45,069 bases of DNA from Brevinematales bacterium. Lineage in GTDB: Bacteria > Spirochaetota > Brevinematia > Brevinematales > Thermospiraceae. Every line of letters starts with the position of its first letter. Position 1 is the stretch's first letter. The notes under the pieces are model-generated. The model did no database searches and was not told the origin of the DNA. It saw nothing but the letters and a program-made list of their open reading frames with translations. Below are positions 1,505 to 45,069 of the stretch, piece by piece. The stretch is taken from assembly GCA_013177995.1 (NCBI GenBank), contig JABLXN010000013.1, positions 1 to 45,069 of the forward strand. The letters run 5' to 3'. A program made the translations under genes and the position numbers.

Positions 1505-4006
1505 ATGATAGATATACGTTTTCTTGAAGATCATATCTTTCCTTTTGTGGAAAAACCTTCCCGATACACCGGCGGAGAAATTCATAGTATAGAGAAATCT
1601 CATCAAGGACGGACAACGTTAGCGCTTGTTTATCCGGATATTTATGAGATTGGAATCTCTAATTTAGGCATACGTATTCTCTATGACCTTGTGAATAGGG
1701 ATGATCGATTCGTGTGTGAAAGGGCCTACGCTCCCTGGTTGGATATGGAGGAAAAACTTCGGGAGTATCAGATACCCCTTTATAGTCTTGAAAGCAAGAC
1801 ACCACTTCGGGAATTTGATGTCGTGGGGTTTAGCTTTCAGTATGAACTTCTCTATACCAACTTTCTCACGGTTCTTGATCTTTCGGGTATTCCATTTTTT
1901 TCTTCTGAAAGGACGGAAGAAGATCCTGTGATTATTGCAGGTGGGCCTATTACGGGAAACATAGAGCCCATTGCTGATTTTGTTGATGCGGTGTGTGTTG
2001 GGGATGGGGAGTCAGCCCTTCTTGAGATAATGGAGGTGTGCCATACTCAGTCTTCTCTTTCACGAAAGCAACTTCTTCAAAGACTATCAGAGATTCAAGG
2101 GGTGTACGTGCCTTCTCTCTATACCCTTCATAAGAGAGGGGGGGTGATTGTTCCTGAGGGGAAACCTGTGCGTCTCAGGACAGAACAGGATTTGGAGAGA
2201 CTTCCCTTTGTGACACGACAGATTATTCCCAACTGTGAGGCTGTGCAGGATAGGGCGGTGGTTGAGGTTTCGAGGGGGTGTACACGGGGGTGTCGTTTTT
2301 GTCAGGCAGGTATTCACTATAGGCCGGTAAGAGAGAGAAGTGTGGGTACTATTCTTGAATTGGCAAGAGAGGCAGTGAAGGAGACGGGGTATCGGGAGTT
2401 TTCTCTCATCAGTCTTTCTATCAGTGACTATTCAAGACTGAATGAACTCCTTCCCCTTTTGCATGAACAGTTTTCCCCCCATGGGATTTCTTTTTCTTTG
2501 CCAAGTTTACGGCTTGATAGTTTTACCCTTGATCTTGCTGAGAAAGTTCAGGAGATTCGCAAGTCAGGCCTTACCTTTGCGGTCGAGGGGGCTACGGATG
2601 AAATTCGTCGTTCTATAAACAAAACCGTGACAGGAGAAGATCTCTGTAGTGTTATTGAAATTGCTCAGAATTTTGGCTGGCGATCGGTGAAGCTTTATTT
2701 TATGATAGGGCTTCCCTATACTACTCCTGCTGAAGAGGTCAGCGGAATTAAAACTCTTCTTGAAACGCTTAGTCGTCGTTTTCCGCGTATCACCCTGACA
2801 GCAAGTGTGGCTGTCTTTATTCCCAAACCGCATACTCCTTTTCAATGGGCTGGTCAGATGGACCCTGATGAGGCCCTTGAATATTTTCAAGGGCTTATTG
2901 CTCATTTTCGACGGAATCATCGGGTACAGATTCGCTATAATCACCCCCATCTGAGTTTTTTGGAGGGGGTATTTTCGCGGGGGGATCGTCAGTTAGGAAA
3001 GGTAATTCTCGAAGCCTGGAGAATGGGAGCTCGTTTTGATAGCTGGAATGATAGAATTCGTTTAGATCTCTGGCAGAGGAGTTTTGAGAAAGTGGGTATT
3101 GATCCCTGGCAATATGTAAAACCCAAGCAGGATGATGATCCTCTCCCCTGGCAGGTGATTGAAACGGTAAGTCGTGATTTTCTCTTGAGAGAAAAGAAAA
3201 AGGCAGAAGAGAGATGCTTTTCTGATGATTGTCGAAAGGGGTGTGTGAATCATTGTCGGGTATGTGATTTTGTGACACTCAAGCCAAGAGAGGCAGAGAA
3301 AAAAACGGCTTTTGTTGATGTAAATTTTCTCTCCAATGTCCAGATAGGGAAGGAGCCATTAGAGGTCTTGCGGTTTTCCTTTACCAAGCGAGGAAGGGCA
3401 CGCTATCTCTCGCCGACCGATCTTGAGGAGGTTCTTTCCAGAGCCGTTATAAGATCCAATCTTCCTGTCTGTTATACGAGGGGATTCAATCCTCATTTCC
3501 GTTTTGCCTTTTTGTGGGCGTTACCTTTGGGATTTGAGAGTGAGCAGGAGATAGCAGAGGTTATGGTGTGGAAACACCTTCTTCCTGAGGAGTGGAGAGA
3601 GCGTTTCAATGAGAGTTTGCCTGATGGTATTCGCCTGATGGCAGTGAATCTTTTGCCCCTTGGTACCAAGGCACTCAGTCAGCGTGCCAAAACGCATCTC
3701 TGCGAAATGATGGTAGAAGCCCCTTCTCTTTTCTCTTCTCTTTCTTCTATTCCTGAAGAGGCGACCTTTCTCAAGCAGACAAAGTCCGGGGAGAAACGAC
3801 TGTTGCTTCGAGAGTATATTCATTCTCTGACAACGGAAGGGATGACGAAGGTGTGTTTTACCCTGACAGAAGGAGGTATGCGTCTTCAGGATGTCCTTGA
3901 GGCTATAACCGGTATAGGGATGCCTGAACTTCTCCGTTATCGTCCCCTTCTTCTTAGGCGATTTGTGATCCAGGGGGGAAGAGAGGTTTCTCTCATGGAA
4001 TTATAA
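1505..4006 (+). CDS. Radical SAM protein fused to a DUF2344 domain (TIGR03960 + TIGR03936)
   Basis: An 833-residue fusion. The N-terminal part resembles a B12-binding-like radical SAM module ('DIYEIGISNLGIRILYD', 'IIAGGP', 'VDAVCVGDGE'). The radical SAM cluster motif CTRGCRFC has Cys 259, 263 and 266, which would bind a 4Fe-4S cluster that cleaves SAM. A second Cys-rich stretch (about residues 571-590, CX4CX3CX3CX2C) could hold another metal. From about residue 617 the sequence matches the radical-SAM-linked domain TIGR03936/DUF2344 ('FSFTKRGRARYLSP', 'YTRGFNPHFRF'), which many bacteria encode as a separate neighbouring gene. The substrate is unknown; RNA or ribosome-related work has been suggested for relatives. 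The ATG at 1505 has AGGATGG just upstream. The stop codon TAA (4004-4006) overlaps the target site of a repeat insertion. Confidence 0.88.
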   Translation: MIDIRFLEDHIFPFVEKPSRYTGGEIHSIEKSHQGRTTLALVYPDIYEIGISNLGIRILYDLVNRDDRFVCERAYAPWLDMEEKLREYQIPLYSLESKTPLREFDVVGFSFQYELLYTNFLTVLDLSGIPFFSSERTEEDPVIIAGGPITGNIEPIADFVDAVCVGDGESALLEIMEVCHTQSSLSRKQLLQRLSEIQGVYVPSLYTLHKRGGVIVPEGKPVRLRTEQDLERLPFVTRQIIPNCEAVQDRAVVEVSRGCTRGCRFCQAGIHYRPVRERSVGTILELAREAVKETGYREFSLISLSISDYSRLNELLPLLHEQFSPHGISFSLPSLRLDSFTLDLAEKVQEIRKSGLTFAVEGATDEIRRSINKTVTGEDLCSVIEIAQNFGWRSVKLYFMIGLPYTTPAEEVSGIKTLLETLSRRFPRITLTASVAVFIPKPHTPFQWAGQMDPDEALEYFQGLIAHFRRNHRVQIRYNHPHLSFLEGVFSRGDRQLGKVILEAWRMGARFDSWNDRIRLDLWQRSFEKVGIDPWQYVKPKQDDDPLPWQVIETVSRDFLLREKKKAEERCFSDDCRKGCVNHCRVCDFVTLKPREAEKKTAFVDVNFLSNVQIGKEPLEVLRFSFTKRGRARYLSPTDLEEVLSRAVIRSNLPVCYTRGFNPHFRFAFLWALPLGFESEQEIAEVMVWKHLLPEEWRERFNESLPDGIRLMAVNLLPLGTKALSQRAKTHLCEMMVEAPSLFSSLSSIPEEATFLKQTKSGEKRLLLREYIHSLTTEGMTKVCFTLTEGGMRLQDVLEAITGIGMPELLRYRPLLLRRFVIQGGREVSLMEL

Positions 4007-4009
4007 TCT

Positions 4010-4048
4010 GATAGCATGGCACGAATGTGCCATGCTATCAAAAAAGTT
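4010..4048 (+). repeat. Family A element, copy A1, left part (split by element B)
   Basis: The terminal hairpin of the element: arms at 4010-4022 and 4027-4039 around a GAAT loop, perfectly paired, with one further T-A pair from the flanks. Its arms differ from the family consensus (GAGACCTTTGCAC) but remain fully complementary. The 5-bp duplication AATCT stands at 4005-4009 and again at 5203-5207 after the right part. Without element B and one copy of the 18-bp repeat, A1 would be 195 bp. Confidence 0.8.
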
Positions 4049-5028
4049 TGTCGTTCCACATTCATACAGAATGGTTATCTTCACACAAAAACTGAATAGT
4101 TGTTCGATCATCTTTTCTTTTTCAGTTTTGGGCTATTTTGTCACCCATTTTCCTTCTTTTACAAAGTACTCCCGTATGGGCAAAGGGGGCCTTGTCCTCG
4201 TCGCATGCTACGCATGCGCCTCGGACGGAAGACAGGCCGCTTTTGCGGGCAAAGAAAAACTTCTTCCTTTTCCAGGGGAAGCCCTTCCTCCGTGGGCGAC
4301 CTCAACTCGTCCTCCTGACTTCGGAAAAAGCGCTCCCGCGCGGGCAAAAGGGGCTCCGCCCCTTTTGAAAACCCCGCCCCCGCCCCTGCGGCGGTTTCTG
4401 TAGCCACCGACCTGTCTCCCATGGTGCGGGCTGGAAGAAAAGCCTGTAGCCCCACTCTCTTCTGTAGCCGCCCGGGGACAGCCCTCCGTGCCTGACCCCG
4501 GGCTTCCTCACCACCTCCTGTGGTTCGGACATCGGCAAGAAAATGGAGCCCTCTTCCAACAGCCCGCATGGCCTCTACTCCCACGGGGCTTCTCCGACGG
4601 CACACCGCAGGCAGGGGCGAGGGCTATGGCAATATCTCAGCAAGAAGGGGGCTTTCTGAGACCACAGGACCCAGGGCTATGACCTTGTTTCAGCTAAACA
4701 ACCCATCGGTTAAACGTTTAACCTATGTCTATACCTCTCCCTCTTTCTATTCCCATGTCTCAGCAAAAGCCCTCCAGCTCCGCTTTGGTGGGCTTGTGAG
4801 AAAAAACAACAAAAGATGTCGCCCCGGGTGCCTCCTGCACCCTCACTCCGGAAGGACTTCCCCCTTACGACAAAGGACGCACAACCGCAAAAGCGGCCCG
4901 GTGGATACTGAGCGAAGTCGAAGTGGGGTACAGAAAAAAAGGGGTGAAAGAACAGAGCTTTCTCGTGTTATTTCCTTGTTCATTAAGAAATGTGGAAATA
5001 GCTATTCAGTTTCCTATGTGGAACGACA
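4049..5028. mobile_element. Family B element: 980 bp with 13-bp terminal inverted repeats
   Basis: The ends are exact inverted copies, TGTCGTTCCACAT at 4049-4061 and its complement at 5016-5028. It is flanked by an 18-bp direct repeat (4031-4048 and 5029-5046, one mismatch) and lies inside family A copy A1. The middle (about 4170-4620) is strikingly GC-rich compared with the window. It holds open frames on both strands (for example 148 codons at 4159-4605 minus and 176 codons at 4520-5050 plus), but none has a recognisable domain, convincing ribosome-binding site or protein-like composition, so I call no gene. Around 4345-4385, read on the minus strand, it carries a relative of the GGGGCG-AGCCCC hairpin found in family A. 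It is likely non-autonomous or decayed. Confidence 0.65.
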
Positions 5029-5202
5029 CATGCTCTCAAAAAAGTTGTAAAGAAGCACAATTAGCCAAAAAATATCTCTCTTGATAAAAACCACCCGCCT
5101 TTTTTTGAATAAAAAACAGGCCTGCTGTAAACAGAAAAAACGGGGTTTCAGGGGCGCAGCCCCTGACCCAAACAGGGGAAGAAAAAACTGTACAAGGGGC
5201 TC
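5029..5202 (+). repeat. Family A element, copy A1, right part
   Basis: It continues the A1 copy interrupted at 4048. It aligns along its whole length with the internal part of the other copies, including TGTAAACAG (5126-5134), the CGGGGTTTCA motif and the CAGGGGC-GCA-GCCCCTG hairpin (about 5149-5165). It ends in CAAGGGGCTC at 5202, followed by the target duplication AATCT. It forms most of the spacer before the gene at 5334. Confidence 0.8.
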
Positions 5203-5333
5203 AATCTTTTTTCAAATATAAGTGCTGTCCCTTTGTTTTTGAGGTCTTCTTTTGGTTCAGCATGAGAGGGCTTTCTTGCTTTGTCTCAAGATTTTTGCTT
5301 TTTCTCCGAAAATCAAAAAGATAGGAGGATTTC

Positions 5334-7097: not shown

Positions 7098-7295
7098 GAG
7101 ACCTTTGCACGAAGGTGCAAAGGTCTCAAGAAAGTGATAAAAAACAAAAAATGGTATAGAAATGTTCCTTTCTATAATAAAAAATCCTATTTTTGGATAA
7201 AAAAGCAGATAAACCTTTGTAAACAGTAAAAACGGGGTTTCAGGGGCGTAGCCTCTGACCTAAACAAGAGAAGAAAACATTCGTCCAGGAGTCTC
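7098..7295 (+). repeat. Family A element, copy A2
   Basis: A 198-bp copy between convergent genes. The left end is a perfect 13-bp hairpin (GAGACCTTTGCAC, loop GAAG, complement 7115-7127). The central CAGGGGC-GTA-GCCTCTG hairpin follows near 7241-7257, and the right end closes with AGGAGTCTC. The flanks (AAAGA and GTTTT) do not match, so the target duplication has decayed or was never present. It sits 5 bases after the stop codon of the minus-strand gene that ends at 7301. Confidence 0.75.
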
Positions 7296-9403: not shown

Positions 9404-9602
9404 GAGACTTTGCACGAATGTGCAAAGTCTCAAGAAAGTAATAGAAAACAGAAAGTAGTATAAAAATATTCCTTTCTATAATAAACAATCCTATTGTTGT
9501 GGATAAAAAAAGGCAAATAAGCCTTTGTAAACAGAAAAAGCGGGGAAGAGGGGCGTAGTCCCTGACCCAAACAGGGGAAGAAAATACCCGTGCAAGGGTT
9601 TC
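9404..9602 (+). repeat. Family A element, copy A3
   Basis: A 199-bp copy. The hairpin has 12 bp (GAGACTTTGCAC, loop GAAT, exact complement at 9420-9431): one base is missing from each arm compared with other copies, so pairing stays perfect. The right end is CCGTGCAAGGGTTTC. No matching flanks are seen. It fills the space between the promoter of the 7301-9346 gene and the end of the penicillin-binding protein gene. Confidence 0.78.
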
Positions 9603-17677: not shown

Positions 17678-17874
17678 GAGACCTTTGCACGAATGTGCGA
17701 AGGTCTCAAAAAAGCAATAAAAACACAAAATTAGTATAAAAATATGCCTTTCCATAATAAAAAATCCTATTTTTTTGGATAAAAAAGACAAATAAGCCCT
17801 TGTAAACAGAAAAACGGGGAAGAGGGGCGTAGCCCCTGATCCAGAAAGGTCAAGAAGCCCCCTGTAAGGGTCTC
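17678..17874 (+). repeat. Family A element, copy A4
   Basis: A 197-bp copy. Hairpin arms GAGACCTTTGCAC and GTGCGAAGGTCTC surround GAAT (one G-U type pair). The AGGGGC-GTA-GCCCCT hairpin and a right end CTGTAAGGGTCTC follow. The flanks CTTTT (17673-17677) and TTTTT (17875-17879) match at 4 of 5 bases. Its right end supplies the final codons and stop of the cupin gene that ends at 17850. Confidence 0.8.
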
Positions 17875-34530: not shown

Positions 34531-34730
34531 GAGGTCTTTGCACATTCGTGCGAAGACCTCAAAAAAGTAATAAAAAAACGAAAAATAGTATAAAAATATT
34601 CCTTATGATGATAAGTGATGCTCTATTTTTTAACTAAAAAGACAAATAAGCTTCTGTAAATAGAAAAAGCGGGGTTTCAGGGGCGTAGCCCCTGACCTAA
34701 GTAGGACAAGAAAAAACCTGCAAGGGTATC
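34531..34730 (+). repeat. Family A element, copy A5
   Basis: 200 bp, with a perfect 5-bp target duplication ATTTT (34526-34530 and 34731-34735). The hairpin arms are GAGGTCTTTGCAC and GTGCGAAGACCTC around ATTC: relative to the other copies both arms changed together (GAGACC/GGTCTC became GAGGTC/GACCTC), which keeps the pairing. The central CAGGGGC-GTA-GCCCCTG hairpin is intact. The right end is CTGCAAGGGTATC. Confidence 0.85.
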
Positions 34731-37161: not shown

Positions 37162-38399
37162 ATACCCTCCAAAAACGAGAGAATATCCTGATATATCTCT
37201 AGCCTATTTCTTTCCATCAAAAGATGATGGTTGCCAGGATAGAGTTTCACCTCTAAGGACGGAAAGAGCCTCTGAAGAACAGGAAGGTTGTACTTCCAGT
37301 CCACGACGCTATCCTCTCTTCCCTGCACCATCAGGACGGGAAATGTTCCAAAAGAAGGATACAGGATAACCCTTTCATGCCAGTTTCTTGCCGCTCGAAG
37401 CCAGGAGAGATGGACCTTTTTCTCCTGAAGGGGGTCTTTGTTGTAGATAAAATCCAGAAAATCCTTGTCTGAGGTGGTTTTGTTCTGAGAACGGGGAACC
37501 TCTGTCAAAATCCCCCCAAGGATATTGTAGCCCATGAGAGCCATGTTCCAGTTAACAAGTCGCACAAGGGGAGAAACAAGCACCAATTTTTCTATCCGTT
37601 TTTCTCTTCTATGGTTGTGAAGGTACTCAATCCATACCGAACACCCTGTACTGAAACCCATGGCCACAAAGCGTTGGGGAACATCCACCCTTTGAAGGAC
37701 ACTCTCGAGAGCCTCAGCATACTCAGAAAAATCCTCTATCCCTGTTCGAAGCCCACTGGAAAGTCCATGTCCGGGCAAATCCATCGCCACAATGGTGTAC
37801 CCTTGAGCAAGAAAAAACTCATAAAAAGCCCCATAGTTTCCCACATGATCAAGATATCCATGCACAAAGACAATGGTTTTCTGAGACTTTTGAGGCAGAA
37901 ACTTGAGCACAAACACGGTATTTGTCCGCTGCCATGACACCACAAAACTCTGGATCCGGACTCCTTCCCACGAGAGATGATAAAAGTGAAGATAGTCACC
38001 TAAGATTTCCGTTGCATTGGTTTTTCCATTTGCCTGAAAGGCAAGATTTGTCCACTTCGTATAGGTATTTGTTTGGGCATACCCAAACCCCACCAAAAGA
38101 AAAAGACTACACAATACGAGACCTTTGCACGAATGTGCGAAGGTCTCAAAAAAGTAATAAAAAAACAAAAATAGTATAAAAATATTCCTTTTCGTAATCA
38201 ATAATTCTATTTTTTTTGAATAGAAAAGACAAGTAAGCCCCTGTAAACAGAAAAATCGGGGTTTCAGGGTCGAGAGCCACAAGTTCACCGTTGTGGTACT
38301 CGTATACTGTAAACAGAAAAATCGGGGTTTCAGGGGCGCAGCCCCTGACCCAAACAGGGCAAGAAAGCACCCGTGCAAGGGTCTCAATACTCTTTTCAT
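37158..38399 (-). CDS. Exported alpha/beta hydrolase (monoacylglycerol-lipase type) with a family A insertion in its signal peptide
   Basis: 413 codons as it stands. The catalytic part has 'IVFVHGYLDHVGNYG', nucleophile elbow GFSTG, acid Asp in 'GREDSVVD' and His in 'GNHHLL', so it is a serine hydrolase of the Hydrolase_4 group. The ATG at 38399 overlaps the stop of the Fic-like gene and has CAGGAG upstream. Codons 1-5 read MKRVL; then 91 in-frame codons (the 268-bp family A copy plus a duplicated AATAC) interrupt; the gene resumes with 'CSLFLLVGFGYAQ'. The empty site reads MKRVLCSLFLLVGFGYAQ, a perfect signal peptide of a 322-residue protein. Reading through the element adds a long hydrophobic stretch, so export may change. 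A TTG inside the element (about 38201) could be an alternative start but lacks a ribosome-binding site. The end overlaps metH by ATGA. Confidence 0.8.
   Translation of the reverse strand: MKRVLRPLHGCFLALFGSGAAPLKPRFFCLQYTSTTTVNLWLSTLKPRFFCLQGLTCLFYSKKIELLITKRNIFILFLFFYYFFETFAHSCKGLVLCSLFLLVGFGYAQTNTYTKWTNLAFQANGKTNATEILGDYLHFYHLSWEGVRIQSFVVSWQRTNTVFVLKFLPQKSQKTIVFVHGYLDHVGNYGAFYEFFLAQGYTIVAMDLPGHGLSSGLRTGIEDFSEYAEALESVLQRVDVPQRFVAMGFSTGCSVWIEYLHNHRREKRIEKLVLVSPLVRLVNWNMALMGYNILGGILTEVPRSQNKTTSDKDFLDFIYNKDPLQEKKVHLSWLRAARNWHERVILYPSFGTFPVLMVQGREDSVVDWKYNLPVLQRLFPSLEVKLYPGNHHLLMERNRLEIYQDILSFLEGI
38118..38385 (+). repeat. Family A element, copy A6 (enlarged, inside a gene)
   Basis: 268 bp, with perfect target duplication AATAC (38113-38117 and 38386-38390). 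The hairpin is identical in sequence to that of copy A4. It is longer than other copies because a 29-bp segment (38241-38269) is repeated at 38307-38335, with 37 bases between them. Those 37 bases hold their own small hairpin (CCACAA and TTGTGG arms, about 38277-38296). The whole copy is open in the minus-strand frame of the hydrolase gene. The right end is CCGTGCAAGGGTCTC. Confidence 0.88.
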
Positions 38400-44943: not shown

Positions 44944-44984
44944 TGTCGTTCCACATATGAAACTGAATACCTATTTTCACATTT
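44944..44984 (+). repeat. Lone end of family B element
   Basis: 41 bases match the right end of the 980-bp element (4988-5028, reverse complement) with 3 differences, including the exact TGTCGTTCCACAT terminus. No opposite end is visible in the remaining 85 bases of the window, so it is a solo end or a relict. It stands between the divergent regulator operon and the gene at 45024. Confidence 0.65.
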
Positions 44985-45023
44985 GACAAAGAAGGGGCAA
45001 CGAAGGGATAATAAGGAGGAACT

Positions 45024-45069
45024 ATGAAGAGGAGGAAGAAGTATATGGTTAAATCGAAGGTAAAGAGAT
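45024..45069 (+). CDS. Start of an unidentified rightward gene (partial)
   Basis: An ATG at 45024 after AAGGAGGA (45013-45020) begins a very basic N-terminus (MKRRKKYMVKSKVKR), cut by the window edge. No function can be given. Confidence 0.6.
   Translation, partial: MKRRKKYMVKSKVKR

Follow-up and report, generated by a model that had tools for sequence, protein, structure and literature searches.

A probable MITE-like derivative of an IS1202-type insertion sequence, nested within an unrelated MITE in a Brevinematales genome

Nested elements in an intergenic interval

The DNA analysed here (the window, 45,069 nucleotides) is contig C5 of a 2.38-Mb, 57-contig genome of a Brevinematales bacterium. 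Between a radical SAM gene and the next gene, the window carries a copy of a short repeated element (A1, of family A) that is split by a longer element (B). These elements, the other A copies and an insertion sequence (IS) at the end of the contig are located as follows:

4005-4009, no strand: left 5-bp target duplication of A1, aatct, repeated at 5203-5207
4010-4048, + strand: left part of A1, a hairpin (4010-4022/4027-4039) and then an A-run; aligns to the A consensus
4031-4048, no strand: left copy of the 18-bp target duplication of B, catgctatcaaaaaagtt
4049-5028, + strand: element B, probably a MITE-like non-autonomous derivative of an IS1202-type insertion sequence; about 30 two-ended copies, both ends homologous to a coding IS
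4049-4061, + strand: left terminal inverted repeat of B, 13 bp, 100 % complementary to 5016-5028
4049-4098, + strand: left end block of B, 50 bp that match positions 1318-1367 (right end) of the coding IS at 81 %
4109-4978, no strand: GC-rich non-coding core of B, GC 0.56
4349-4377, - strand: short inverted relative of the central A hairpin, local alignment score 31
4988-5028, - strand: right end block of B, 95 % over 41 bp to the left end of the coding IS
5016-5028, - strand: right terminal inverted repeat of B, exact pair of 4049-4061
5029-5046, no strand: right copy of the 18-bp target duplication of B, catgctctcaaaaaagtt, one mismatch to catgctatcaaaaaagtt
5047-5202, + strand: rest of A1, downstream of the right 18-bp repeat
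5203-5207, no strand: right 5-bp target duplication of A1, aatct, repeat of 4005-4009
7098-7295, + strand: uninterrupted A copy
9404-9602, + strand: uninterrupted A copy
17678-17874, + strand: uninterrupted A copy
34531-34730, + strand: uninterrupted A copy with 5-bp duplication
38118-38385, + strand: A copy enlarged by an internal insert
44944-45069, + strand: left end of a coding IS copy, cut by the contig end; transposase start codon at 45024

The sequence of the window places B at 980 bp, and both the exact inverted ends and the flanking 18-bp direct repeat with its single mismatch are as the original prediction had described them. A further inverted pair lies just inside the ends (4089-4104 / 4997-5012). 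When B and one copy of the repeat are removed, 195 bp of A1 remain, and these align over their full length with the A consensus (156 of 204 columns identical). A1 is thus a real A copy split by B, and the predicted nesting of one family in the other is confirmed. From the structure of the nest follows its order, A first and B second: an A element of about 201 bp would have come to lie between the two genes and B would then have landed in its left hairpin. B may have inserted at this locus, or A and B may have arrived jointly as a composite, because at another locus (L062) the right half of a related A copy meets B at the base seen in the window (CATGCTCTCAAAAAAGTTGTAAAG..., 86 % over 181 bp). 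Common descent or recombination may link the two nests. At the orthologous locus of a sister species (genome G001), about 100 bp separate the radical SAM gene, which is 76 % identical, from its neighbour, and both A and B are missing from this interval; both insertions are therefore lineage-specific, or were lost in the sister genome.

Family A consists of elements of about 201 bp with the ends GAGACCTTTGCACG and CGTGCAAGGGTCTC (GAGACC...) and a 5-bp target-site duplication (TSD). The end pattern has 387 matches with at most one mismatch, up to three sites falling in each copy (the two ends and an inner hairpin arm), and we estimate the copy number at 100 or more. An exact 5-bp repeat, the mode, was found in 57 of 107 strand-wise counts where 1.5 are expected, the 107 counts corresponding to about 54 distinct copies matched on both strands. 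We found no partner IS for A and no match to A in the two other genomes of the genus. A is a MITE unrelated to B.

We also considered that the left hairpin of A is an intrinsic terminator hit by B, and rejected this since A's, not T's, follow the hairpin. Both arms of the A1 hairpin (4010-4039) deviate from the A consensus and still form a perfect 13-bp inverted match, and in other A copies the loop is flipped, reading GAAT or ATTC. The paired changes in A1 suggest hairpin-templated correction or selection on the stem.

A modular family with long target duplications

Comparing the DNA of B with the genome returned 126 matching pieces, and the terminal sequence TGTCGTTCCACA occurs exactly 73 times, against 0 for the reversed control pattern. 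Among about 60 regions examined we count about 30 elements with both ends, numbers that rest on the searches and on the examined regions of the genome. The second full-length copy with the same ends, on which the prediction of a family depended, is accordingly one of many. Copies span 288 bp to 1.8 kb, most of them 0.3-1.3 kb, with one of 2410 bp that has a second IS inside. The two end blocks are common to nearly all of them, and the core is modular, some of its blocks being deleted or placed in another order. One frequent deletion joins position 142 of B to 280, beside a similar repeat of about 28 bp (117-144 and 280-306), and would be explained by recombination between these repeats. Relatives of the B DNA are restricted to this genome as far as we searched, with nothing of substance in 40 related genomes and B absent from those of the same genus.

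Two copies have unusual cores. The 1775-bp element at L080:9119-10893 has B ends and a 260-aa ORF that encodes a zinc ribbon of IS1595 type (E 4e-10) and a catalytic part that matches poorly; the ORF is either cargo or a nested decayed IS. The 288-bp element at L091:2039-2326 has B ends around a core that is almost entirely one A element, and is flanked by a 5-bp repeat, tagct.

A and B are found in each other repeatedly. Whole A elements lie inside the B copies L032, L034, L035, L039, L043 (twice), L054 and L091, and B lies within A or at its edge at five places, namely in the window and at L079, L058, L037 and L062. The original prediction had pointed to an inverted relative of the central A hairpin within B, and had read it as exchange between the families or a common origin. 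The relative is present (29 bp), and its score of 31 is marginal, the highest of 200 shuffles being 30. The match is a short GC-rich palindrome of the GGGGCGNAGCCCC hairpin type, for which convergence or a generic hairpin would be an equally good explanation. An exchange of a hairpin module between A and B, or an origin common to both, is improbable in our view, even with this match and with A sequence in many B copies: the ends and TSD lengths are unrelated (GAGACC.. and 5 bp for A, TGTCGT.. and 18 bp for B), and the A sequences within other B copies are complete 201-bp elements beyond which B resumes, several with a 5-bp repeat, as ordinary insertions have. Neither exchange nor common origin is needed. 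Nor is a special affinity of A and B, because so many A copies lie between genes. L034 and L039 have a common A-in-B junction (flanked by gaaat) and different 18-bp TSDs; a B copy carrying A has therefore moved as a unit.

The core of B is richer in GC than the window (0.56 versus 0.45) and, as predicted, holds no recognisable gene. Its two longest ORFs have no Pfam match, and comparison of the copies reveals many frame-breaking indels, which led us to reject a coding core. Against Rfam the core has no match above threshold (best sub-threshold E values 0.1 and 0.6), and we likewise reject a known RNA. A structured RNA or regulatory cassette useful to the host, with transposon ends that are incidental, would fit the GC content and the single-strand folding of 4100-4975, which is better than that of shuffled sequences (z = -4.3, 20 shuffles only). 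We regard it as very improbable given a core that is reshuffled, deleted and interrupted between copies, the Rfam result and the absence of B from genomes of the same genus.

A direct repeat of about 18 bp abuts about half of the roughly 30 two-ended B copies. Pairs of flanks belonging to the same element mostly score 12-19, against scores of 4 or less for 99 % of 1056 mispaired flank combinations. TSDs of 18 bp with 0-2 mismatches are found in the window and at L034, L039, L061, L065, L066 (one base off), L079 and L094. L049 and L059 have 19-bp repeats, L041 an 18-bp repeat displaced by 5 bp and L051 a decayed one of 18 bp. The B copy at L067:2751-3403, upstream of an 817-aa ORF, has a 30-bp TSD (2 mismatches), which exceeds 18 bp by about one helical turn. 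At about 13 two-ended copies a recognisable TSD is absent, for which we propose recombination between copies or decay. We rejected a target motif: the 18 TSDs examined have mild A/T enrichment (63 %) only and no strong consensus.

L079 provides a paralogous empty-site control. Here an A copy is interrupted 2 bp before its end, and AACACCCGTGCAAGGGTC is present twice, compared to once in intact A copies. One might suppose that the 18-bp repeat in the window is a recombination remnant or a pre-existing repeat of A, its two copies differing by one base and A sequences being repeated across the genome. Intact A copies, however, contain the sequence of the repeat once only, and 18-19-bp repeats adjoin both ends of many unrelated insertions outside A, which makes this explanation highly improbable and argues for a target duplication.

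A coding insertion sequence with the same ends

A coding version of B, which the original prediction had proposed to search for, exists in the same genome. Three nearly full-length coding IS elements of 1365-1372 bp (L081:10692-12058, L082:1892-3256 and L083:2044-3415) have the same ends as B, and contig ends truncate further copies. The single transposase ORF, of 403-405 aa, is intact in L081 and L083 and frameshifted in L082. The copy at the end of the window is identical to L082 over 126 of 126 positions and 99 % identical to L081. A dN/dS of 0.14 between the L081 and L083 transposases indicates that the protein is under purifying selection.

The transposase has the DDE residues D154, D214 and E253; D214 and E253 are invariant in an alignment of 31 sequences, and D154 is at least 90 % conserved. 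Seven residues after the catalytic E (E+7) it has Q, the majority residue of the distant homologues in that alignment being R. Its best NCBIfam hits are ISNCY_2 (132 bits) and IS481 (118 bits), both below cut-off, and it matches the Pfam rve integrase core weakly. In the AlphaFold model (pLDDT 79, pTM 0.59), helical bundles at the N terminus are accompanied by an RNase H fold and a beta barrel, and there is no separate C-terminal domain. IS21 IstA (8q4d/8b4h), TnsB and MuA match best by sequence as well as by fold; they rank first in Foldseek, with low TM-scores (0.3-0.5) and large rmsd that speak for domain arrangement, not exact superposition. Among 393 genomes of the phylum the transposase is found at E <= 1e-20 in only one other, at 44 % identity; the named record that matches is Spirochaetes bacterium ADurb.Bin133, by which the host belongs to the same phylum.

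The outer ends of the IS are TGT...ACA. They share TGTCGTTCCACA exactly over 12 bp, followed by a partial match further in. Each outer site recurs near the opposite end: the outer left matches the inner right at 23 of 24 positions and the outer right the inner left at 16 of 20, with scores of 43 and 23 against a 99th percentile of 19 for random 31-mers. An exact 18-bp TSD flanks L081 and L082, and IS ends paired across different contigs have exact duplications of 18 bp in two pairs and 19 bp in a third.

Some observations concern the assembly around these copies. Several contigs break off about 115 bp into an IS copy, and the contig pairs C18/C20 and C3/C23 (L090/L097 and L095/L098), with matching 18-19-bp duplications at their ends, are probably each joined by an IS copy. 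The outer 18-bp flank of the IS copy at the end of the window (ttttcatgaataaaaagc) recurs as the flank to the right of the IS copy that lies in contig C54 (L083:2044-3415), and the two flanks of that copy do not match each other. Either recombination between IS copies or misassembly would account for this.

The 2.4-kb B copy at L061:2610-5019 has an ISH6-like 410-aa transposase inside B ends, and could on that account be taken for the coding version of B. This is barely credible, and we rejected it: the ISH6-like unit (about 3115-4625 of L061) recurs six times elsewhere at 92-99.9 % identity, and the homology breaks off at the limits of this unit, well short of the B ends, so that it is a separate IS inserted in B.

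B as an IS1202-type MITE-like element

Members of the IS1202 family have a TnsB-like DDE transposase encoded as a single large protein of 394-507 aa, with two HTH bundles, an RNase H fold and a beta barrel, and with Q at the seventh residue after the catalytic E where other DDE families have R/K (PMC10132070). Their ends are TGT...ACA, with imperfect TIRs of 22-29 bp and an extra binding site, a second copy of the inner TIR, near each end (PMC10132070). A long-TSD subgroup, to which IS1202, ISTde1, ISCARN53/62/63 and ISHahy13 belong, makes TSDs of 16-28 bp, with published lengths of 16-17 or 27-28 (PMC10132070).

The partner IS has the features of this subgroup in each respect examined: a transposase of about 400 aa within the family range, Q at E+7, TGT/ACA outer ends with an imperfect TIR, two binding-site-like motifs per end, an exact TSD of more than 15 bp and, in the AlphaFold model, the TnsB/IstA-like layout for which the Foldseek TM-scores are those given above. 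It also resembles ISTde1 in having no separate C-terminal domain. It differs from the published members in its TSD of 18-19 bp, with 30 bp in one B copy, and B itself differs in having no transposase. Placement in the long-TSD IS1202 group is strongly supported and is made by features, not by alignment with a named member. IS481 does not fit: in that family TSDs are mostly 6 bp and E+7 is R/K, compared to 18 bp and Q here, with a score below the IS481 cut-off. Because the features of the partner match the long-TSD group, an 18-bp TSD is what would be expected. The original prediction called the duplication unusually long, which holds for insertion sequences in general and not for this group, where it is ordinary.

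Taken together, these results suggest, with a probability of about 0.92, that B is a MITE-like non-autonomous element moved in trans by the long-TSD IS1202-group transposase of the same genome. B shares its ends with a coding IS, lacks a transposase and has a TSD equal in length to that of the IS (18 bp). The similarity of its ends to those of the IS is about the same in nearly all of 30 mapped elements. B also keeps the outer TGTCGTTCCACA plus an inner repeat of a binding-site-like motif: the left end block has outer and inner candidate transposase sites, the inner one matching the outer site of the other end, and the relation that links the two ends of the IS at 23 of 24 positions links those of B at 19 of 23. 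The IS transposase would bind two sites at each end of B and join the TGT/ACA ends to the target, whose two strands would be cut about 18 bp from each other; repair of the gaps would yield the 18-bp duplication. In most B copies the left end reaches only about 80 % similarity to the right end of the known IS. This weaker match suggests that B derives from a related IS that is not among the copies seen, and B may have descended from, or been moved by, a relative no longer present.

B resembles bacterial MITEs such as the IS1182-related MITEPye1 (PMC11578231) in being non-coding and multi-copy, with ends from a coding IS family, and, at the locus studied, intergenic. It differs in its length and modular GC-rich core, and in a partner that is IS1202-type, not IS1182. 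The mechanism is ordinary and the family little studied, namely an IS1202-type MITE-like derivative nested in an unrelated MITE. In the open full-text literature searched for IS1202 together with MITE (subscription papers and ISfinder being outside the scope), the sole MITE found belongs to IS1182, and B is possibly the first non-autonomous family linked to a long-TSD IS1202-type element. It offers dozens of natural insertion sites, including paralogous empty sites, at which to study a TnsB-like transposase making an 18-bp duplication, as well as a spirochaete genome in which two MITE families have inserted into one another.

The range of TSD lengths raises the idea that the duplications made by a single bacterial transposase fall into discrete length classes, spaced by about one helical turn (18-19 bp at most copies, 30 bp at L067 and perhaps 5 bp at L091), which we consider unlikely. 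The IS481EU/Banshee elements of parabasalids have a related DDE transposase, TGT..ACA ends in Histomonas families and long TSDs in discrete length classes (PMC10045372). Unlike the elements described here, with 18-19 bp and a single 30-bp case, they are eukaryotic and their classes are about 4/15/25 bp (PMC10045372). By analogy, discrete classes in this genome would resemble those reported within single eukaryotic IS481EU families.
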